Shown here one piece after another: positions 13,828 to 23,090 of a stretch of DNA of 64,000 nt. This DNA is from Fodinibius salinus (GTDB lineage: Bacteria > Bacteroidota > Rhodothermia > Balneolales > Balneolaceae). How positions within the stretch are numbered: position 1 is the stretch's first letter; every line of letters begins with the position of its first letter. The DNA is taken from positions 434,001-498,000 of the forward strand of contig NZ_VNHY01000001.1 of assembly GCF_008124865.1 (NCBI RefSeq), read 5' to 3'. Position numbers and translations under genes: made by a program. The notes under the pieces were generated by a model. The model saw only the letters and a list, made by a program, of their open reading frames with translations, made no database searches and was not told the origin of the DNA.

Positions 13828-14772
13828 TCAAAATTGATAGTTTATCCCTAATGAATGTGCAGTGCCAAATCCTGTTTCAAAGGGGGAAAGACTGTAGTTG
13901 GCACGTACGGATCCAATAGTAAATTCTGCCCCGGCACTCCAGCGGCGAACGGTATCACCGGCATTATAGCCGGATTGCAAGGTAATAGTCTCTGCAACTT
14001 CAAGTTGAACGGCCATGGTAGTGTAGGGAGTGGCCCGCGTGGTTGACTGTGTAGTATTTTGTATCTGATTAGTTGGTATCACCCAGTCGTTTAGCAGTTG
14101 CATCGTAATTGGAAAATTATTTTGTGGAGCTGTAAAAGTAATAACCTCAATATTTATCCCTGCTTTAAAACGAGTAGGCAATGTACTTGCTTCTGACCGA
14201 AGCTCATTCATTTGTCCAAGATTAAGAAAGCTTGTTCCCAAATGGATACGATCATTCCACAATTTTGTGGCAGCACCAAAGCTAGCTGAATATCCCGATG
14301 CACTGTAGATATAATATTCCTCCCACAAATACTGAAGCGTAGCTCCCAATGTTATCGGACCAACCTGATGAGCATATGCGCCACTGAGTGATAAAAAGCT
14401 TATCGAGAAGGTACCATTTGCCGGACCGGCTTGGTTACCCCGAAGTGCAATATTATCAGTTTGAGCTCCAAGAAATCCAAAGGCCAGTGCCCGTGGCCCT
14501 TTTTTAAAATTGACAGCCGCATGAGCAATTGACAGACCTGCAATCCAAGAGCTGTAGTCGGCATTAAGGTTAGAACTGGGTTCCAATGCTAAATTAGCGG
14601 GATTGGCATAAATGTCAGATCCTCCCAGTAAGCTAGCTGTTACTGTTTCATTGAGTGCCAATGCTTTGGTACCGGGACCAATAGTGAGCAGCTCTAGACC
14701 GTTACTCTGGGCAAAACTACAACAGCTTATTCCAAGCAATAAAATACAAAAACTTATTTTTTTGATACGCAT
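13828..14772 (-). CDS. PorV/PorQ-like outer-membrane beta-barrel protein
   Basis: This 314-residue protein has a signal peptide (about residues 1-21, ending FAQ). The PorV/PorQ-family opening follows: GPGTKALALNETVTA, then the DIYANPANLAL motif. Alternating beta-strand sequence runs to a C-terminal aromatic (NYQF). Such proteins are FadL-like barrels; PorV shuttles type IX secretion substrates, but no type IX genes are nearby, so only the fold is claimed. It is transcribed away from the trp operon and shares its upstream region. Confidence 0.72.
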   Translation of the reverse strand: MRIKKISFCILLLGISCCSFAQSNGLELLTIGPGTKALALNETVTASLLGGSDIYANPANLALEPSSNLNADYSSWIAGLSIAHAAVNFKKGPRALAFGFLGAQTDNIALRGNQAGPANGTFSISFLSLSGAYAHQVGPITLGATLQYLWEEYYIYSASGYSASFGAATKLWNDRIHLGTSFLNLGQMNELRSEASTLPTRFKAGINIEVITFTAPQNNFPITMQLLNDWVIPTNQIQNTTQSTTRATPYTTMAVQLEVAETITLQSGYNAGDTVRRWSAGAEFTIGSVRANYSLSPFETGFGTAHSLGINYQF

Positions 14773-14867
14773 GCTCCTAACTGAAATCTGAATACGATCT
14801 ATTTTCTGGGAAAAACTTATAATTGTATCTGTTCTAATATAGGTTTTATTTATAGCAAATAAACGTG

Positions 14868-14896
14868 TTGATTTTCGAGTGCCCGCCCATTATCTT
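14868..14896 (+). promoter_or_regulatory. Putative promoter of the trp operon
   Basis: TTGATT (14868-14873) and TATCTT (14891-14896) are separated by 17 bases, which fits a sigma-70 promoter. Read in Bacteroidota style the same site is TTG-N20-TATCTTCA, close to the -33/-7 consensus. Either way transcription would start at about 14902-14905, almost at the leader-peptide ATG (14906), giving a nearly leaderless transcript. Confidence 0.5.
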
Positions 14897-14905
14897 CAGG
14901 TCGTT

Positions 14906-14953
14906 ATGGAAAAATCTACTCATAAAAATGTCAGTTGGTGGTGGCTCCGATAA
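14906..14953 (+). CDS. trpL: trp operon leader peptide with three consecutive Trp codons
   Basis: This 15-residue open reading frame reads MEKSTHKNVSWWWLR and stops at TAA. Three tandem TGG codons occupy 14936-14944. It sits just upstream of a hairpin set and terminator, and 166 bases before trpE. That is the arrangement of a ribosome-mediated trp attenuator: a ribosome short of Trp-tRNA stalls on the TGG run. A peptide this short with WWW is hard to explain otherwise. No strong Shine-Dalgarno is visible (CAGG about 6 bases upstream). Confidence 0.88.
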   Translation: MEKSTHKNVSWWWLR

Positions 14954-15043
14954 ATTGGAGCAGTGGCATTCTTATGAGTTAGATTTATACATCGATCTTA
15001 GCAAGCCCACTGCAGTCAAGCTGGAGTGGGCTTTTTTGTTTTT
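14919..15043 (+). promoter_or_regulatory. trp transcription attenuator (mutually exclusive hairpins)
   Basis: Three competing pairings can be laid out. 1:2 is 14919-14933 with 14964-14978 (CTCATAA/TTATGAG, then AATGTCA/TGGCATT), plus an inner GCTCC/GGAGC (14944-14948 with 14957-14961). 2:3, the antiterminator, is GCAGTGG at 14960-14966 with CCACTGC at 15007-15013. 3:4, the terminator, is AAGCCCACT (15003-15011) with AGTGGGCTT (15025-15033), followed by T-rich sequence. A ribosome stalled on the Trp codons covers strand 1, frees strand 2 to pair with 3, and blocks termination. This is the classical enterobacterial logic read from sequence alone. Confidence 0.88.
15003..15043 (+). terminator. 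trp attenuator terminator (3:4 hairpin)
   Basis: A perfect 9-bp stem AAGCCCACT / AGTGGGCTT with an additional CAG/CTG inner pairing. It is followed by TTTTGTTTTT. It lies between trpL and trpE and acts as the conditional stop. Confidence 0.92.
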
Positions 15044-15119
15044 AAAAGGTTGGCATTACAACTAAAGTAGTTAAAAATAATTTTCTTAAGACCCCGTGTC
15101 CTAGCGGCAGAAAAAAATT

Positions 15120-16583
15120 ATGGAACTAGAAAAATTTAAACAACTAGCAGACAATTATACTGCTATTCCGGTATATCGCCGATTAATGGCCGATGTACTG
15201 ACTCCGGTTTCACTGTTTTTATCTTTGCGAAAAGACAGTAAATATCCCTTTTTGCTGGAATCTGTGGAAGGGGGAGAACAGGTAGCTCGGTATTCTTTTT
15301 TAGGCCGAAATCCGTACCAGATACTGCAATATGATGGCCAAAATGTAGAGTTGAAAAAAAATAATAGCACCCAGCAGCTTGACCAATCTTACTTTGAAGC
15401 GTTGAGAACATTAACGACCCAGCATCGCGAACCTGATATTCCCGAATTGCCTCGGCTGTCGGGTGGGGCGGTAGGGTTTTCATCCTACGATACCGTTCGG
15501 GAGATCGAAGAGCTCGGAAATGTCCCAGAAGATGATACTGATATCCCCGAAGCTATCTGGGCGTTTTATGATGAAGTATTTGCCTTTGACCATGTAAAGC
15601 AGCAGGTCATCATTATAAATACGGTGTTTGTAGATGATGAAACTACGGATGTTGAGAATTTATATACCAAGGCACAGGATCGACTCGATGAGCTAGAGGA
15701 ATTGGTCTATCAGCCGGAGCATGCATCGGATTCATTTTCCATAAACCCCGATGCATTGACCAGTAATGTGGAGCAGCACGAATTTGAAGAGATGGTACAG
15801 CAGGCCCAGCAGTATATTTATGAAGGGGATATCTTTCAGGTAGTACTTTCGCAGCGGTTTGAAACAGACTTTAATGGGGATCGTTTTATGTTGTATCGCG
15901 CGTTGCGGATGGTGAACCCATCACCGTACTTATTTTTTCTGGACTTTGAAGATTTTGCACTGGTGGGATCATCACCTGAGGTGTTGGTACGCGTACAGGA
16001 TGATACAGCCCAGCTGTTACCCATCGCAGGTACACGTCCGCGCGGACAGACGCCTGAAGAAGATTTAGAGTTGGAACAAGATCTCAAAAACGATCCCAAA
16101 GAAATTGCAGAGCACGTTATGCTGGTGGATTTAGGAAGAAATGATTTATCTCGGGTTTGCAAGCCGTCCACTGTACGTCCTGTCCGTGAGCAGGTAATTG
16201 AGCGTTACTCCCATGTGATGCATATTGTTTCAGATATAAAAGGCGAGCTGGCTGAAGATCAGACCTCGGTAGATGCGTTGATGCGTTGTTTCCCCGCAGG
16301 AACAGTTAGTGGAGCACCTAAAATTCGGGCTATGGAAATTATTGACGAGCTGGAACCAACTAAGCGCGGTCCCTATGCCGGGGCAGTGGGCTACTTTGAT
16401 TTCTCCGGTAATATGGATACTTGCATTGTCATCCGTACCATGATGGTTACCGGATCAAAAGTCTATATACAGGCCGGGGCTGGTATTGTGGCTGACAGTG
16501 ATCCCAAGAAAGAATATCTTGAAACAAAAAATAAGGCCGATGCACTGGTAGAAGCACTCAGCGTAGCGTTGGAAATTGAATAG
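15120..16583 (+). CDS. trpE: Anthranilate synthase component I
   Basis: This 487-residue chorismate-binding enzyme makes anthranilate with TrpG. The N-terminal Trp feedback site LLES is near residues 45-48. The catalytic core carries PIAGTRPRG, ELVDLGRNDL-type MLVDLGRNDLSR, HIVSDIKGEL and the signature FPAGTVSGAPKIRAMEII. The length is normal. As the first structural gene behind the attenuator it is controlled both by termination and, probably, by Trp binding. Its ATG follows a purine-rich stretch (GGCAGAAAAAAATT). Confidence 0.97.
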   Translation: MELEKFKQLADNYTAIPVYRRLMADVLTPVSLFLSLRKDSKYPFLLESVEGGEQVARYSFLGRNPYQILQYDGQNVELKKNNSTQQLDQSYFEALRTLTTQHREPDIPELPRLSGGAVGFSSYDTVREIEELGNVPEDDTDIPEAIWAFYDEVFAFDHVKQQVIIINTVFVDDETTDVENLYTKAQDRLDELEELVYQPEHASDSFSINPDALTSNVEQHEFEEMVQQAQQYIYEGDIFQVVLSQRFETDFNGDRFMLYRALRMVNPSPYLFFLDFEDFALVGSSPEVLVRVQDDTAQLLPIAGTRPRGQTPEEDLELEQDLKNDPKEIAEHVMLVDLGRNDLSRVCKPSTVRPVREQVIERYSHVMHIVSDIKGELAEDQTSVDALMRCFPAGTVSGAPKIRAMEIIDELEPTKRGPYAGAVGYFDFSGNMDTCIVIRTMMVTGSKVYIQAGAGIVADSDPKKEYLETKNKADALVEALSVALEIE

Positions 16584-16585
16584 GA

Positions 16586-16652
16586 ATTAAACCACAGAGT
16601 AATGCAGAGAATGACATCGAGATAATCAAACCTCTGTTGACTCTATAGTTAA
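16586..16652. repeat. Degenerate inverted repeat between trpE and trpS
   Basis: AATTAAACCACAGAGT at the left and ACTCTATAGTTAAC at the right are imperfect reverse complements with about 40 bases between them. Inside, CAGAG/CTCTG motifs recur. It looks like a decayed copy of a dispersed CCACAGAG-type palindromic element; it might fold in the trp mRNA. Confidence 0.4.
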
Positions 16653-16684
16653 CACAATAACATTATTGAAAAAATAGACGAACA

Positions 16685-17671
16685 ATGAACACGATTTTAT
16701 CAGGTATTCAGTCATCAGGTAAATTGCACCTTGGCAATTATTTCGGTGCGTTGCGTCAGCACATACAGATGCAGGAAGAAGGTGATGCCTTTTACTTTAT
16801 TGCTAATTACCATTCTCTTACGTCTATAAATGACGGTGAAGAGATTAGGCAAAATACTATTGACGTTGCCCTCGATTATTTAGCCTTGGGCTTAGATCCC
16901 GACAAAGCTACGTTTTTTGTACAGAGTGATGTACCCCAACATGCCGAGCTGGCGTGGATTTTAGGTACTTTTTGTCCCGTTAGCCTGATGGAAAAGGGCG
17001 TTGCTTATAAGGATAAAATACAGCAGGGGCTAAAGCCAAACATTGGCTTGTTTACCTATCCTATTTTACAAGCAGCAGATATCTTGATGTATGATGCCGA
17101 CCTTGTGCCTGTGGGCAAAGATCAAAAGCAAAATATTGAAATCTGTCGCGATCTGGCTGGTAAGTTTAATCATAATTATGGGGAAGAGCTGCTAAAGCTT
17201 CCTGAACCACATATTTTGGAATCTGTAGCCGTTGTTCCCGGCATTGACGGGCAAAAGATGAGTAAATCATACGATAATACCATTGGAATTTTTGATGAGG
17301 GCAAAACACTTGAGAAACAAGTGATGTCTATCCAAACGGATTCTACACCATTGGATGAACCTAAAGATCCTGAAAGTTGCAATGTTTTTGCACTTATCAA
17401 GTTATTTGCTGATGAGGAAAAACAAAATGAGATTGCCCAAAAATATCGGGATGGTGGTTATGGCTACGGTCATGCCAAAAAGGAATTGCTGGCAATGATC
17501 GAAGACTATTTTGCGGAAGCACGTGCCAAGCGCAAAGAGTTGGCTCAAGATCTGGACACCGTCCGAGATATTCTGAGTGAAGGCGGAAAAAAAGCTCGTG
17601 CACGAGCAGAAAAGGTCATGGAGCCAGTACGTGAGGCTACAGGACTGCTAAAAAGTTATGATTTTAAGTAA
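16685..17671 (+). CDS. trpS: Tryptophanyl-tRNA synthetase
   Basis: This 328-residue class I aminoacyl-tRNA synthetase charges tRNA-Trp. The HIGH-type motif is KLHLGNYFGAL near residues 14-24 and the KMSKS motif is in DGQKMSKSYDN near 190-200. The length is typical of bacterial TrpRS. It lies inside the trp operon between trpE and trpG, behind the attenuator that senses charged tRNA-Trp, so its own product would feed back on its expression. Gaps are 101 bases upstream and 64 downstream. Confidence 0.96.
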   Translation: MNTILSGIQSSGKLHLGNYFGALRQHIQMQEEGDAFYFIANYHSLTSINDGEEIRQNTIDVALDYLALGLDPDKATFFVQSDVPQHAELAWILGTFCPVSLMEKGVAYKDKIQQGLKPNIGLFTYPILQAADILMYDADLVPVGKDQKQNIEICRDLAGKFNHNYGEELLKLPEPHILESVAVVPGIDGQKMSKSYDNTIGIFDEGKTLEKQVMSIQTDSTPLDEPKDPESCNVFALIKLFADEEKQNEIAQKYRDGGYGYGHAKKELLAMIEDYFAEARAKRKELAQDLDTVRDILSEGGKKARARAEKVMEPVREATGLLKSYDFK

Positions 17672-17735
17672 AACTATATGCTTTAAAATCCTCTTGGAAG
17701 AATATTGAAGAGGATAATATTAAAATGTAAGAACA

Positions 17736-18323
17736 ATGATTTTAATCATAGACAATTACGATTCATTTACTTATAACCTCGTTCACATTGTAGCTGAGCA
17801 TACTGATAACTACCGGGTCATCCGTAATGATGATCTTTCTCTGGATGAGGTGGCAGAGCTTGACTTGGAAGGTATTCTTATTTCTCCCGGACCCGGCCGT
17901 CCGGAAGAGGCGGGCATAACCAAGCCGGTGGTTAAAGAATTAGGAAGAACCGTCCCCATTCTTGGTGTTTGTCTGGGACATCAGGCTATTGGAGAAGTTT
18001 TTGGCGGCAAAATTGTGCAGGCCCCGACATTAATGCACGGTAAAACATCGAATATCAGTCATGACAATAAGTCTATATTCAACGATATTCCCCAAGAATT
18101 TACGGCAACACGTTATCATTCGCTGGTGTTGGATCCCGCCCAAATTCCAGATCAGTTGGAGGTTACCGCACGCAGCGAGGATGAAGTGATTATGGGGATA
18201 CGGCATCATCAGCATCCTATAGAAGGAATCCAGTTTCATCCGGAAAGCTTGTTAACTAAAGCCGGACCAAAGCTGATAACAAACTGGTTACAGCAAATTA
18301 AAACTGAACCTAAATTGACGTAA
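17736..18323 (+). CDS. trpG: Anthranilate synthase component II (glutamine amidotransferase)
   Basis: This 195-residue class I amidotransferase supplies ammonia from glutamine to TrpE. The catalytic cysteine is in GVCLGHQ (about residue 79), and the His-Glu pair in QFHPESLLT near the C-terminus. The N-terminus IIDNYDSFTYNLV and ISPGPGRP are family hallmarks. Some relatives also serve as PabA; no pabB is nearby and the position between trpE/S and trpD makes TrpG the main role. Confidence 0.95.
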   Translation: MILIIDNYDSFTYNLVHIVAEHTDNYRVIRNDDLSLDEVAELDLEGILISPGPGRPEEAGITKPVVKELGRTVPILGVCLGHQAIGEVFGGKIVQAPTLMHGKTSNISHDNKSIFNDIPQEFTATRYHSLVLDPAQIPDQLEVTARSEDEVIMGIRHHQHPIEGIQFHPESLLTKAGPKLITNWLQQIKTEPKLT

Positions 18324-18330
18324 AACAGAG

Positions 18331-19368
18331 ATGGATTTTAAACAAATATTAGAAAAGTTAGCAGAACGACAGGACTTAACGCAAAGCGAAGCTAAGAATG
18401 CCTTACAGAGTATTATTGAAGGTGAAGTTGGTGTAGAACGAACCACTGCTTTTTTACTGGGTATGCGCTCAAAGGGAGAAACAATAGAAGAACTAACATC
18501 TTTTGTGCAGGTGATGCGCGATGCAGCTATTTCTCCGGATGTACCGGTTGAAGGAGCAGTTGACTTGTGTGGTACCGGAGGTGATAACTCGGGAACGTTT
18601 AATATTTCAACGGCCGCTATGTTTGTGGTGGCAGGGGCAGGAGTACCCGTTTTGAAGCACGGAAATCGCAGTGTGTCAAGCCAAAGCGGCAGTGCAGATG
18701 TTTTAGAGGCACTTGATATTGTGGCCACTCTGCAGAAAGAACAAATTGAGCATGTATTTGATGAAATTAATGCCTGCTTTATGATGGCTCCAAATTTCCA
18801 TCCGGCTATGAAGCACGTGATGCCGGCACGGCAGGTGCTGGGTATTCGTTCATTTTTTAACACTATGGGGCCATTACTTAATCCGGCAGGAGTTCGCCGG
18901 CAGGTCGTTGGGGCTTTTGATAAACGTACCGCAGGCCAAATTGCGGATATCTTATCTAATTTAGATTCGGAGCGCGTATATAGTGTTCATGCTCGTGATG
19001 GTCTGGATGAGTTTAGCCTCAGTGCGCCCACCTTTGTATATGAAATTGAAGATAATGAGCTTAAAACGGAACGAGAATTTGATGCGGCTTCACTCAGATT
19101 TGATCCGGTAAGCCTGCAAGATCTCCAGGGTGGTGATCGATTCTTCAATGCAAATATTATCCGTTCTGTGCTAGAAGGTAATGCCAAGCCGGCACATCGT
19201 AACATTGTACTGCTAAATGCTACGTTTGGTATTCATGTATCTGGCAAAGCCGATTCACTAGAGCAGGCTAAGAAAATGGCTATTGAGAGTATTGATTCGG
19301 GAGCAGCACTACAATTGTTGCACCGGATGAGTGAAGCAACAAATGATATCATGGAGGTAAGTGAATAA
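18331..19368 (+). CDS. trpD: Anthranilate phosphoribosyltransferase
   Basis: TrpD transfers phosphoribose from PRPP to anthranilate. This 345-residue protein has the PRPP-binding CGTGGDNSGTFNIST (about residues 80-94), KHGNRSVSSQSGSAD, and the second signature MGPLLNPAGVRRQVVG. The start ATG is 7 bases after trpG. Length and motifs are complete, with no odd features. Confidence 0.97.
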   Translation: MDFKQILEKLAERQDLTQSEAKNALQSIIEGEVGVERTTAFLLGMRSKGETIEELTSFVQVMRDAAISPDVPVEGAVDLCGTGGDNSGTFNISTAAMFVVAGAGVPVLKHGNRSVSSQSGSADVLEALDIVATLQKEQIEHVFDEINACFMMAPNFHPAMKHVMPARQVLGIRSFFNTMGPLLNPAGVRRQVVGAFDKRTAGQIADILSNLDSERVYSVHARDGLDEFSLSAPTFVYEIEDNELKTEREFDAASLRFDPVSLQDLQGGDRFFNANIIRSVLEGNAKPAHRNIVLLNATFGIHVSGKADSLEQAKKMAIESIDSGAALQLLHRMSEATNDIMEVSE

Positions 19369-19371
19369 TTT

Positions 19372-20181
19372 ATGGCTAATATTTTAGATGAGATTGTAGA
19401 GCAAACGGTTGCTGATCTTAAAAAACGAAAGCGTAAAGTCACCTATAACGACTTGGGCAATATGGATTTATTTGAGAAACCCTCGAAAAATTTTAAGGGT
19501 GCACTACAGCTTGATAATGATGTGGCCATTATTGCAGAAATTAAAAAAGCATCGCCTTCAAAAGGACTCATCCGCCCGGATTTTTATCCAAAACAGATCG
19601 CTCGACAGTATCAGGACGGGGGAGCAGCTGCAATATCTGTACTTACTGATGCTCCTGCCTTTAAAGGTAGTTTAGAATATTTAGAAATTGCATCTAAGGA
19701 AGTCGATATACCATTGCTGCGCAAAGATTTCATTGTAGATCCATACCAGGTGAAAGAAGCCAAAGCTTACGGTGCTGATGCTGTGTTATTAATTGCCACA
19801 ATTACGGATGGTCATCAGCTGCAGGAATTATTGCACGCTGCAAAGGAATTTGAGCTACAAGCTCTGGTAGAATGCTATTCGGAAGACGATACTGAATATA
19901 TTAATTTTGACCATATGGATATACTTGGCGTTAATAATCGTGATCTTCGTACCTTTGGGGTTGACTTGCACCGCGGCGTAGAATTACTGCAAAATGCACC
20001 AGAAGATATGGTGTTGGTTTCAGAAAGTGGACTCAGTAATGCCGAAGATCTACAGTTTTTGTTTGATAATGATATTGATGCTGCGCTGATTGGAGAATAC
20101 TTTATGCGACAGGATAACCCAGGGCAGGCAGTGGCAGAGCTAAAATCAGAATTTAAGAATTTAATTACTCAAGAAACGTAA
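19372..20181 (+). CDS. trpC: Indole-3-glycerol phosphate synthase
   Basis: This 269-residue TIM-barrel enzyme closes the indole ring. Visible motifs are IAEIKKASPSKGLI (catalytic lysine segment), the LLRKDFIVDPYQ strand, NNRDLRTF and VSESGL. The ATG is 3 bases after the trpD stop, so it is translationally coupled. TrpC and TrpF are separate proteins here, unlike the fusion in E. coli. Confidence 0.97.
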   Translation: MANILDEIVEQTVADLKKRKRKVTYNDLGNMDLFEKPSKNFKGALQLDNDVAIIAEIKKASPSKGLIRPDFYPKQIARQYQDGGAAAISVLTDAPAFKGSLEYLEIASKEVDIPLLRKDFIVDPYQVKEAKAYGADAVLLIATITDGHQLQELLHAAKEFELQALVECYSEDDTEYINFDHMDILGVNNRDLRTFGVDLHRGVELLQNAPEDMVLVSESGLSNAEDLQFLFDNDIDAALIGEYFMRQDNPGQAVAELKSEFKNLITQET

Positions 20182-20187
20182 AGATAG

Positions 20188-20862
20188 ATGTTTGCAGATC
20201 CTGAAGAACGAACAAAAGTAAAAATTTGTGGAATTACATCACTTGAAGATGCGCGCTTTGTATCTGGTGCGTTGGCTCATTATATGGGGTTTATCTTTTA
20301 TGAAGACAGCTCGCGCCATATTACCCCGGCAAAGGCGGGCGCCATTATCAATTGGCTGCACGGCCCAGACTGTGTAGGTGTATTTGTTAATCAGCCGCTG
20401 GATGATGTGAACATGATAGGTCGGCAGACTGGCATCGATTATGTGCAGCTGCATGGCAACGAAAATCCGGATTACTGTTCGCTGGTGGACAAACCGATCA
20501 TAAAGGCCATTCACGTAGAGGAAGATGATACCACATCAGATTTAAAGAGTCGCATTGAGCCGTATCTCGACCACGTGGAATACCTTTTGTTTGATACCAA
20601 GATCGAAGGCGAATGGGGCGGGACCGGCCAGTCGTTTGAATGGTCAATATTGGATGACGTAGCGGATGGCGTACCATACTTTTTGGCCGGTGGATTAAAT
20701 CGCGATAACATTAGGACAGCCTGCAAGCAGGTACATCCTTATGCTGTTGATGTTTCCAGTGGATTAGAAGCCAAGCCGGGTGTTAAAGACTTTGACAAGG
20801 TGGAAAAATTCATGGAAGAAATGCGAGATATTTGGGATCAACAAGAGATTGGCGAATTATAG
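20188..20862 (+). CDS. trpF: Phosphoribosylanthranilate isomerase
   Basis: This 224-residue TIM barrel has the catalytic cysteine in KICGIT near residue 13, GFIFYEDSSRHI, the VQLHGNE strand and the phosphate-binding end YFLAGGLNRDNI / AVDVSSGLE. It carries out the Amadori rearrangement before TrpC in the pathway. The start is 6 bases after trpC. The C-terminus is slightly extended with an acidic helix. Confidence 0.95.
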   Translation: MFADPEERTKVKICGITSLEDARFVSGALAHYMGFIFYEDSSRHITPAKAGAIINWLHGPDCVGVFVNQPLDDVNMIGRQTGIDYVQLHGNENPDYCSLVDKPIIKAIHVEEDDTTSDLKSRIEPYLDHVEYLLFDTKIEGEWGGTGQSFEWSILDDVADGVPYFLAGGLNRDNIRTACKQVHPYAVDVSSGLEAKPGVKDFDKVEKFMEEMRDIWDQQEIGEL

Positions 20863-20898
20863 TTTTGAGTATAAATATTGAGTAGAAAAGCTTATATC

Positions 20899-20945
20899 AT
20901 CCTGAACCGAAGCTCTGAGCGTGTTTCAGTAATTCCTTTCAGGAG
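20899..20945. repeat. Degenerate inverted repeat between trpF and trpB
   Basis: ATCCTGAACC (20899-20908) and CTTTCAGGAG (about 20937-20946) are partial reverse complements flanking GAAGCTCTGAGCGTGTTTCAG. The left arm is identical to ten bases of the element at 7652. It is probably a remnant of a dispersed intergenic palindrome. Confidence 0.45.
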
Positions 20946-20971
20946 CTAACTTAAAATACAAGAATTTTGAA

Positions 20972-22159
20972 ATGACATATAATCTACCAACAAAAGAAGG
21001 ATATTACGGTAATTTTGGAGGCAAGTTTGTCCCCGAAATACTTATTCCGGTACTCGAGGAGCTGGAAGAAGCCTATGAAGAGGCTTGGAATGATAATTCC
21101 TTTCGTAAAGAATACCACCAATTGCTGGATGAATATGTTGGCCGGCCGACAAAGCTAACTTACGCTAACCGACTGACTGACCACTATGGTAAGGCCAGAA
21201 TTTATCTTAAACGCGAGGATTTATGTCATACCGGTGCACATAAAATTAATAACGCTGTTGGACAGATTTTACTGGCGCAGCGTATGGGCAAAGATCGGAT
21301 TATTGCTGAGACGGGTGCCGGTCAGCATGGTGTGGCAACTGCTACGGCCTGCGCAAAGTTTGGCGTTGATTGTATTGTTTATATGGGCGCTGAAGATATG
21401 GAACGTCAGAAACTAAATGTAGAACGTATGCGGTTGCTTGGTACCGAAGTACGGCCCGTAACCAGTGGTTCTGAGACCCTGAAAGATGCGACCAACGAGG
21501 CTATTCGCGACTGGGTGACCAACGTAGAAGATACGTTTTACATTATCGGTTCGGTGGTAGGCCCCCATCCGTATCCCAAGATGGTGCGCAATTTTCATCA
21601 GGTAATTGGAGACGAAACGAGACAACAGCTGCAAAAAGCCGAGGATACAGAAGTCCCTGATTATCTATTGGCCTGTGTAGGCGGGGGATCTAATGCAATG
21701 GGGATATTCTATCCCTTTATTGATGATGAATCCGTCGAGATGTATGGACTGGAAGCCGCCGGACATGGTGCCAATACAGATCAAACAGCTGCGACACTTA
21801 CTATCGGTCAACCCGGTGTGCTGCATGGATCTATGAGCTATCTCTTACATAATTCTGAAGGCCAAATTCAGTTAGCACACTCTATATCTGCCGGACTCGA
21901 TTATCCGGGTATCGGGCCCGAGCATTCGTATTTACATGACAGTGGGCGCGTAACGTACAAAGGTATCACAGATGAAAAGGCCATGGAGGGGGTGAAGCTG
22001 CTTTCCGAGACAGAAGGAATTATTCCTGCTTTGGAGACTGCTCACGCCGTATCCTACCTCGATGAACTAATGCCTAGGACATCCAAAGATGAAATTGTAG
22101 TACTGAATTGTTCCGGCCGCGGAGATAAGGATATGGGCACAATCTCAAAAAATTTATAA
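20972..22159 (+). CDS. trpB: Tryptophan synthase beta chain
   Basis: This 395-residue PLP enzyme condenses indole with serine. The PLP lysine is in [10 protein letters not shown] (about residues 84-93), and the phosphate-binding glycine loop is [10 protein letters not shown] near 230-239. The N-terminus [14 protein letters not shown] and [12 protein letters not shown] are standard TrpB1 features. The 109-base gap before it holds a degenerate repeat. Confidence 0.98.
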
Positions 22160-22277
22160 TTATTGAAATTAAATGCAGTTTATTTGGGCTAAATAGATTA
22201 CCGCAGAAAGTTAGAAATTTTCTAATTGCGAAAATTTGCTTGACCTCTGTAAACTGTGTTCTATCAAATGACTCATA

Positions 22278-23090
22278 ATGATTAAAACAGATAATAGAAT
22301 AACGCAGCTTTTTGAACGTAACGAAGGTTCAGAAAAAATAATGAGCCTGTTTCTTACGGCGGGCTATCCCGATCTGGAGGCCACGGTGGACCTTATACTT
22401 GGCTTTGAGAAAAACGGTGCTGAAATGATAGAACTGGGCATGCCATTCAGCGATCCGCTAGCCGATGGTCCCACCATTCAGTATTCGAGTAATGTGGCTA
22501 TAGAGCAAGGTATAACCATGAAAAAAATACTGCACATCGTAGAACAGGTACGGGAGGAGTCGAATATCCCCATTATTTTAATGGGTTACATCAATCCCGT
22601 ATTGCGGTATGGAACTGAAGAATTTTGTAAAGATGCTGCTGAAGCGGGAGTAGATGGATTGATTATTCCGGATATTCCCGTTGAAGAATCGAAGGTCTTA
22701 ACTGATAAAGTGGCAAAATATGACTTGCCGATGATTTATCTGGTAGCACCCAACACTTCTGATGAACGCATGCGTAAGATTGATCAACAGTCGCAAGGCT
22801 TTGTATATTGCGTGTCGGTAACGGGGGTAACCGGTGCACGAGAGGGTGATGAGATAGCCCAATCTGTACAGCGATTTATAGGTCGTGTAAAAGAAAATGT
22901 GACTAAAAATCCCCAAATGGTGGGTTTTGGTATTAAATCCCACGAAGACGCCCAGCGCATTGCTGCTGATATGGATGGGTTCATTGTAGGGAGTGCAGTT
23001 ATTGATACGATTAGAGAACATTATCTGGAAGAAGGATGGAAGGACGAAGTATTTGCTTTTGTTCGGTCGTTAAAGTATGGTAAAGAGTAA
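22278..23090 (+). CDS. trpA: Tryptophan synthase alpha chain
   Basis: This 270-residue TIM barrel cleaves indole-3-glycerol phosphate. ELGMPFSDPLADGPTIQ holds the catalytic glutamate, GVDGLIIPDIPVEE the catalytic aspartate loop, and GFGIKSHEDAQ plus FIVGSAVI the phosphate site. The length is normal. The 118-base gap after trpB holds a 15-base AT-rich inverted repeat (22211-22225). It is the last biosynthetic gene of the trp operon. Confidence 0.97.
   Translation: MIKTDNRITQLFERNEGSEKIMSLFLTAGYPDLEATVDLILGFEKNGAEMIELGMPFSDPLADGPTIQYSSNVAIEQGITMKKILHIVEQVREESNIPIILMGYINPVLRYGTEEFCKDAAEAGVDGLIIPDIPVEESKVLTDKVAKYDLPMIYLVAPNTSDERMRKIDQQSQGFVYCVSVTGVTGAREGDEIAQSVQRFIGRVKENVTKNPQMVGFGIKSHEDAQRIAADMDGFIVGSAVIDTIREHYLEEGWKDEVFAFVRSLKYGKE

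Follow-up and report, generated by a model that had tools for sequence, protein, structure and literature searches.

The window, that is, the whole stretch of 64,000 nt analysed here, contains a complete tryptophan biosynthesis cluster in the order trpE-trpS-trpG-trpD-trpC-trpF-trpB-trpA at positions 15120-23090, and upstream of trpE it contains a short leader with tandem tryptophan codons (Table 1). The nearest named relatives of its TrpE, 68-71% identical, belong to Rhodohalobacter, Gracilimonas and other Balneolaceae, MAGs among them, in agreement with the sequence-only reading of this DNA, which had taken the genome to be of the Balneolota type. As in the window, trpE is followed by a trpS motif in all 12 g1 loci, in 2 of the 18 other G loci and in 4 of the 23 named Balneolales loci. 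The upstream neighbour diverges from the leader, so the terminator that follows the leader belongs to the trp transcript, and the idea that it ends the upstream gene was rejected for this reason. The genome, which is 98.5% complete, gives no match to TrpR and none to TRAP, and control by either was rejected on these grounds.

Table 1. Features of the trp locus (window positions) and, in the last row, a second leader elsewhere in the same genome.
Feature	Position	Strand	Details
Upstream neighbour ORF	13828-14772	-	divergent from leader
-35-like hexamer TTGATT	14868-14873	+	17 nt from -10
-10/-7-like element TATCTT (TAnnTT)	14891-14896	+	ends 9 nt before leader ATG
Leader peptide ORF MEKSTHKNVSWWWLR*	14906-14953	+	ATG 14906, TAA 14951-14953
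Segment 1	14912-14933	+	partner 14964-14986 (MFE)
Three tandem Trp codons	14936-14944	+	within leader ORF
Inner hairpin GCUCCGA/UUGGAGC	14944-14961	+	7 bp, 14944-14950/14955-14961, end of Trp run
Segment 2 GCAGTGG	14960-14966	+	
3:4 intrinsic terminator	15003-15037	+	9-bp stem AAGCCCACT 15003-15011 / AGTGGGCTT 15025-15033, T6 15032-15037
Segment 3 CCACTGC	15007-15013	+	antiterminator partner
trpE, anthranilate synthase component I	15120-16583	+	TIGR00564 560.6 bits, cut-off 517.7
trpS, tryptophan--tRNA ligase	16685-17671	+	TIGR00233 298.9 bits; within trp cluster
trpG	17736-18323	+	above an NCBIfam cut-off
trpD	18331-19368	+	above an NCBIfam cut-off
trpC	19372-20181	+	above an NCBIfam cut-off
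trpF	20188-20862	+	210.9 bits, below NCBIfam cut-off 215
trpB	20972-22159	+	above an NCBIfam cut-off
trpA	22278-23090	+	above an NCBIfam cut-off
Cys/Met-run leader, window's own genome	L361:1225-1415 (G000:C2, upstream of 533252)		MNFLNYISNLFANMSMPMCMCCMCCMCTAEGSGCNFPT, 1:2 hairpin

The leader has the parts of an attenuator: a short ORF with tandem Trp codons ahead of a tryptophan biosynthesis gene, a 2:3 antiterminator and a 3:4 terminator that exclude each other, and a 1:2 anti-antiterminator that overlaps the ORF and is strong in the window, weaker in part of the order. The WWW frame before trpE, the antiterminator GCAGTGG/CCACTGC and the perfect 9-bp terminator stem with its T run had all been proposed from the letters alone, and each was located as described. 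The 1:2 pairing exists too, but it had been drawn too small, as 7 + 7 bp with an inner 5 bp, where we find three 7-bp blocks and an inner hairpin of 7 bp. Folding 14890-15045, which had been proposed as a check, bears the structure out: the MFE is -59 kcal/mol against -34.2 +/- 3.2 for 200 shuffles, none of which folds as well (z -7.74). This fold leaves eight of the nine Trp-codon bases unpaired, within an internal loop between the outer helix of 1:2 and the inner hairpin, whose 3' arm overlaps segment 2. A simple scan of the window lists neither the terminator (it permits loops of 3-8 nt, and the loop here has 13) nor the leader promoter (8 of 12 matches, 9 being required).

The helices have energies of -14.4 (1:2 outer), -9.6 (inner), -11.1 (2:3) and -14.3 kcal/mol (3:4). 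In staged folds, a ribosome on the first Trp codon together with RNA made to 15020 yields the 2:3 helix, and a ribosome that has reached the stop codon yields 3:4. At equilibrium, with the RNA made to 15039, the terminator is favoured in all four states computed, and 3:4 still wins (-26.8 kcal/mol) with a ribosome on the Trp codons. Since the terminator is thus the more stable structure once segment 4 is present, the switch must be kinetic.

A TAnnTT element ends 5-10 nt upstream of the leader ATG in 97 of 99 Balneolales leaders (one with less than 200 nt upstream was dropped), and the same search window, when moved up- or downstream, finds it in only 1-9 of the 99. All 97 leaders with the -10-like element have a TTG at a fitting distance upstream, with a 17-nt spacer possible in 91, and none of the 99 has a Shine-Dalgarno-like motif. 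The usual distance from -10 to start would put the first transcribed base at most a few positions from the leader ATG. The leader mRNA is therefore probably leaderless or nearly so, because the -10-like element lies so close to the ATG.

Conservation was followed through the order Balneolales, in which 117 of 128 genomes have a TrpE at E <= 1e-110; seven were excluded for cut-off or broken genes or for want of upstream DNA, and the sample comprised 110 upstream regions (30 whole loci and 80 stretches). The leader is present in 100 of the 110, with adjacent Trp codons in 97 and W-x-W in three. A script detects the WW leader with a T run in 96, and reading the 14 regions that it misses added L168 (WWW) and the W-x-W leaders L088, L129 and L096. 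The pairing counts refer to 97 leaders: three of the 100, in g8 and g20, were set aside for their different layout and divergent TrpE. In 93 of the 97 the Trp run lies either 27 or 30 nt past the ATG, and no part of the peptide is better conserved than the Trp codons; elsewhere it varies in sequence and length. In 24 of the 97 the ORF stops before the segment 2 core; in the other 73 it extends past the core, so that a translating ribosome would itself cover segment 2. The window's leader is the sole exception among 12 g1 leaders in having an in-frame TAA before segment 2. Past this TAA the frame reads IGAVAFL up to the stop of the sisters, several of which have AVAFL at their C-terminus.

The ten regions without the leader are all nine from the genus g19 and L177 from genome G102. 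The expectation that trpE homologues would keep the Trp codons thus holds for 100 of 110 regions and fails for these. In g19 (L149, L150, L152, L154, L157, L158, L160, L161 and L163; alignment A2) the trpE terminator is kept, the Trp codons are absent, and a block CTCYAAAG...CTAGYGTTYACCC is conserved, with no ORF common to all seen, which suggests some other form of control. L177 has a trpE leader ORF, MDKSYYPLTEATN, without Trp codons and then a weak terminator; like g19, G102 retains a terminator without them.

Covariation was counted by cells, one pair in one sequence, in the 69-sequence family alignment (A1) for the 2:3 and 3:4 helices. The former is paired in 99.6% of 483 cells (slid controls 23.0-78.9%) and the latter in 96.1% of 621 (slid controls 28.7-63.6%). 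Changes on both sides occur in 15 cells of each helix, a number reached by none of 500 shuffles, and for either helix no shuffle matches the paired share or the covariation score; these shuffle controls ignore relatedness, so that the figures are not probabilities. Two further measures, the number of pairs with double changes and that of pair types, do not rise above the shuffles (297 of 500 match them for 2:3 and 291 of 500 for 3:4). One base common to segments 2, 3 and 4 covaries three ways across the 97 leaders: it reads TAT in 57 (11 genera) and CGC in 22 (11 genera), wobble states account for CGT 8, TGC 6 and TGT 3, and AGC is the one misfit. Partners taken from other genera often equal the cognate one in pairing (a median of 22% of them for 2:3 and 24% for 3:4), which a conserved core would lead one to expect; the best segment-2 match to the core is below 6 bp in 7 of the 97.

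The inner hairpin also covaries: it has at least 4 bp in 83 of the 97 leaders, and 63% reach a score of at least 10, compared with 20% of shuffled controls. Segment 1 pairs with its cognate segment 2 region at a mean duplex energy of -12.4 kcal/mol, compared with -8.3 kcal/mol for partners from other genera (97 leaders). Parts of the order nevertheless have a weak 1:2 pairing: measured against a shuffled segment 1, z falls below -1 in 71 of the 97 leaders and below -2 in 43 of them. Covariation of the stems, which had been named as a check, is thus found for 2:3 and 3:4, whereas for 1:2 it is weaker.

A chance origin of the leader was rejected on the rate at which a filter finds it. This filter, applied to the last 500-560 nt of each region, takes a short ORF with W-x(0-2)-W and a terminator at the right distance, and it passes 149 of 170 real regions, but only one of 850 Markov sequences and no reverse strand out of 170. 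Beyond the order it passes 49 of 60 hand-picked regions (23 of the 30 that represent other orders of the class and 26 of the 30 that represent other classes), at least L219 being doubtful; the 60 were chosen from 94 non-order genomes with a TrpE match, and 241 of 392 genomes have no match that strong. It also passes 27 of 30 hand-picked regions from 30 further genomes of the phylum with a more distant TrpE, which are probably Bacteroidia. By contrast with these, none of 20 regions from eight families, chosen to probe unsampled groups, passes; three of these families are represented in the 60 as well, f22 with one pass, f33 and f40 with none. Of 80 named TrpE loci, 28 were inspected and 26 have a WW frame (L013 and L015 do not), including five labelled Ignavibacteriales, Melioribacter(aceae) or Bacteroidetes (L026, L027, L028, L034 and L037). 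We take the Trp leader to be common across the phylum, although several families have lost it or lack it. Searched alone, the pattern TGGTGGTGG is uninformative (40 genome sites, control 23); a four-His-codon pattern has 19 genome sites (control 6).

With a probability of about 95%, we take the leader to control the trp operon by ribosome-mediated transcription attenuation. RNA polymerase would start at or a few bases from the leader ATG, and a ribosome would load on the near-leaderless mRNA. When charged Trp-tRNA is ample, the ribosome would pass the three Trp codons and either allow the 1:2 hairpin to form or itself cover segment 2, whereupon the 3:4 terminator would fold and transcription stop near 15037. 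When Trp-tRNA is scarce, the ribosome would stall on the Trp codons, which lie inside the internal loop of the 1:2 hairpin, and open both the outer helix and the inner hairpin, leaving segment 2 to pair with segment 3; the terminator would not form in time, and trpE-trpS-trpGDCFBA would be transcribed, presumably as one transcript.

One alternative is that the Trp codons do no sensing. A protein that binds Trp, as TRAP does, or an RNA aptamer acting directly, could govern the terminator and leave the codons incidental, and g19, in which terminator and conserved block remain without Trp codons, indicates that another sensor may occupy this position in relatives. We regard this as very unlikely for the window, where no Rfam family reaches its gathering score: neither TRAP nor TrpR has a match in the genome, and incidental codons would hardly be found in 100 of 110 regions or keep their distance of 27 or 30 nt to the ATG in 93 of 97. 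That nearly fixed position also speaks against a constitutive partial terminator, or a structure at the mRNA 5' end, that does not respond to the amino acid. The equilibrium folds, which end in the terminator in all four states with the RNA made to 15039, are what such a device would give, yet a constant terminator needs no antiterminator and segments 2 and 3 covary, so that we give this account almost no credence.

The conservation of the Trp codons, the best kept part of the peptide, would also be expected if the ORF encoded a functional small Trp-rich peptide that acts in trans, with the terminator serving to make a small mRNA. There is a precedent in Sinorhizobium, where peTrpL is reported to act in trans and comes from a leaderless trp attenuator RNA (PMC7298713). 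Outside the Trp run, however, the peptide varies in sequence and length, and its stop falls past the segment 2 core in some relatives and before it in others (73 and 24 of 97); as the sole function this is highly improbable to us, although the peptide may have a second role besides attenuation.

The same layout also stands before sulfur genes. When the genomes of the order are searched with a covariance model built on the leader (R1), 110 of 128 give a match at E <= 0.001; three of these are g19 genomes, with weak matches. Twenty further R1 matches were examined, hand-chosen among the matches listed, and 11 are Cys- or Cys/Met-rich leaders (L336-L339, L341-L343, L345, L346, L350 and L353) with a core of the GGTAGTGG / CCCACTACC type. 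Eight others (L340, L344, L347, L348, L349, L352, L354 and L355) resemble ordinary terminators and were rejected. The last, L351, has a Met-rich leader, MCIMPFGMLMSMCSMMMTYTGWDDSGSMKAT, and a terminator before a gene that by eye looks like a TonB-dependent receptor, and it is possibly a Met attenuator.

Behind the 11 leaders lie a 280-aa rhodanese-like protein (five; best model 141.9 bits, below the cut-off of 250), a DASS-like anion transporter (four: L338, L342, L345 and L346, of which L338 alone was tested, at 51.9 bits and below cut-off, the others looking alike) and uroporphyrinogen-III methyltransferase (two, L341 and L350, above cut-off). The window's own genome has such a leader at L361, with a strong terminator AGCCCACTACCTG/CAGGTGGTGGGCT, a fold z of -5.28 and no Rfam family at cut-off; it is followed by the rhodanese-like gene (78% identical) and then by an assimilatory sulfite reductase (699.2 bits, cut-off 457). 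A script for a Cys leader plus terminator passes 19 of 28 rhodanese loci from 27 genomes, and among the other nine a looser look, in which the terminator was not part of the criterion, finds a Cys-run leader at L366 and L376, giving 21 of 28: 19 with a terminator and two by the Cys run alone. Poly-Cys leader ORFs exist in mycobacteria. The Cys/Met leaders suggest that the same device may control sulfur assimilation.

On balance we lean slightly towards a wider proposal, namely that ribosome-mediated attenuation would be the default control of amino-acid genes in much of the phylum. Balneolales would build it on (near-)leaderless ORFs, reusing a single architecture in which Trp codons precede trpE and Cys/Met runs precede the rhodanese-sulfite reductase, anion transporter and siroheme methyltransferase genes. 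The ORF would usually run through segment 2, so that the ribosome blocks the antiterminator, and the covarying inner hairpin would couple the stall site to segment 2. Leader-peptide attenuation is told mostly from Proteobacteria; a 2010 survey was aware of no demonstrated case beyond Proteobacteria and Actinobacteria that preceded its own in Firmicutes (PMC2965389). The densely conserved Balneolales leader would be a good test bed for attenuation on leaderless mRNA, and g19 one for a lineage that drops the Trp codons while the terminator stays. A literature search, whose coverage leaves out most subscription papers and whose result may depend on wording, found no trp attenuator for Balneolota and, within the same coverage, no Cys leader attenuator for Bacteroidota.

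Among known RNA families, none reaches its gathering score anywhere in the window. The best Rfam family for it by E-value and by bits is RF00513 Trp_leader (27.1 bits, E 0.0013, below the gathering score of 41), which it resembles in being a trp operon leader with a 1:2 helix and in that the terminator of the model aligns over its own. RF01692 (gathering score 49) gives no match at E <= 10 for 14800-15130 and none at E <= 1 in 18 loci from the order, class and phylum; of 30 phylum loci scanned in two sets, nine score at or above its threshold (5 of 14 and 4 of 16), the match at L318 lying about 1.3 kb upstream of the trpE match. Vitreschak and colleagues are said to have predicted attenuators in Bacteroidetes/Chlorobi in 2004. 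RF01692, or Bacteroid-trp, is the 'Bacteroidete tryptophan peptide leader RNA' of Weinberg et al. (2010), who list it for Bacteroidetes with 'y' for RNA, 'y' for cis-regulation and 'n' for switch (PMC2864571). Like the leader in the window, it is a tryptophan peptide leader of the same phylum, but its model finds no match in the window's leader region.

The claim of an enterobacterial mechanism new to the phylum was therefore rejected, since RF01692 already names a Trp leader of Bacteroidetes: the attenuator stands, but it is not isolated, many of the phylum members sampled having Trp leaders, and it departs from the enterobacterial form. The Balneolales leader is of a kind of attenuator already known, while this leader itself is new, lying beyond the present Rfam models. 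For the enterobacterial trp leader, the leader peptide and the 2:3 pairing are established. Compared with it, the leader in the window has a promoter-like element 9 nt from the ATG and no Shine-Dalgarno-like motif, and is probably leaderless; it holds eight of nine Trp-codon bases in an internal loop, its family has a covarying inner hairpin after the Trp codons, and the ORF reads through segment 2 in 73 of 97 relatives. Its genome has no TrpR match and has trpS in the cluster. A precedent is trpL-trpE(G) of Sinorhizobium meliloti, with an mRNA that begins at the leader ATG and with attenuation but no repression (PMC7298713), though in an alphaproteobacterium with three trp operons, of which only trpE(G) is attenuated.
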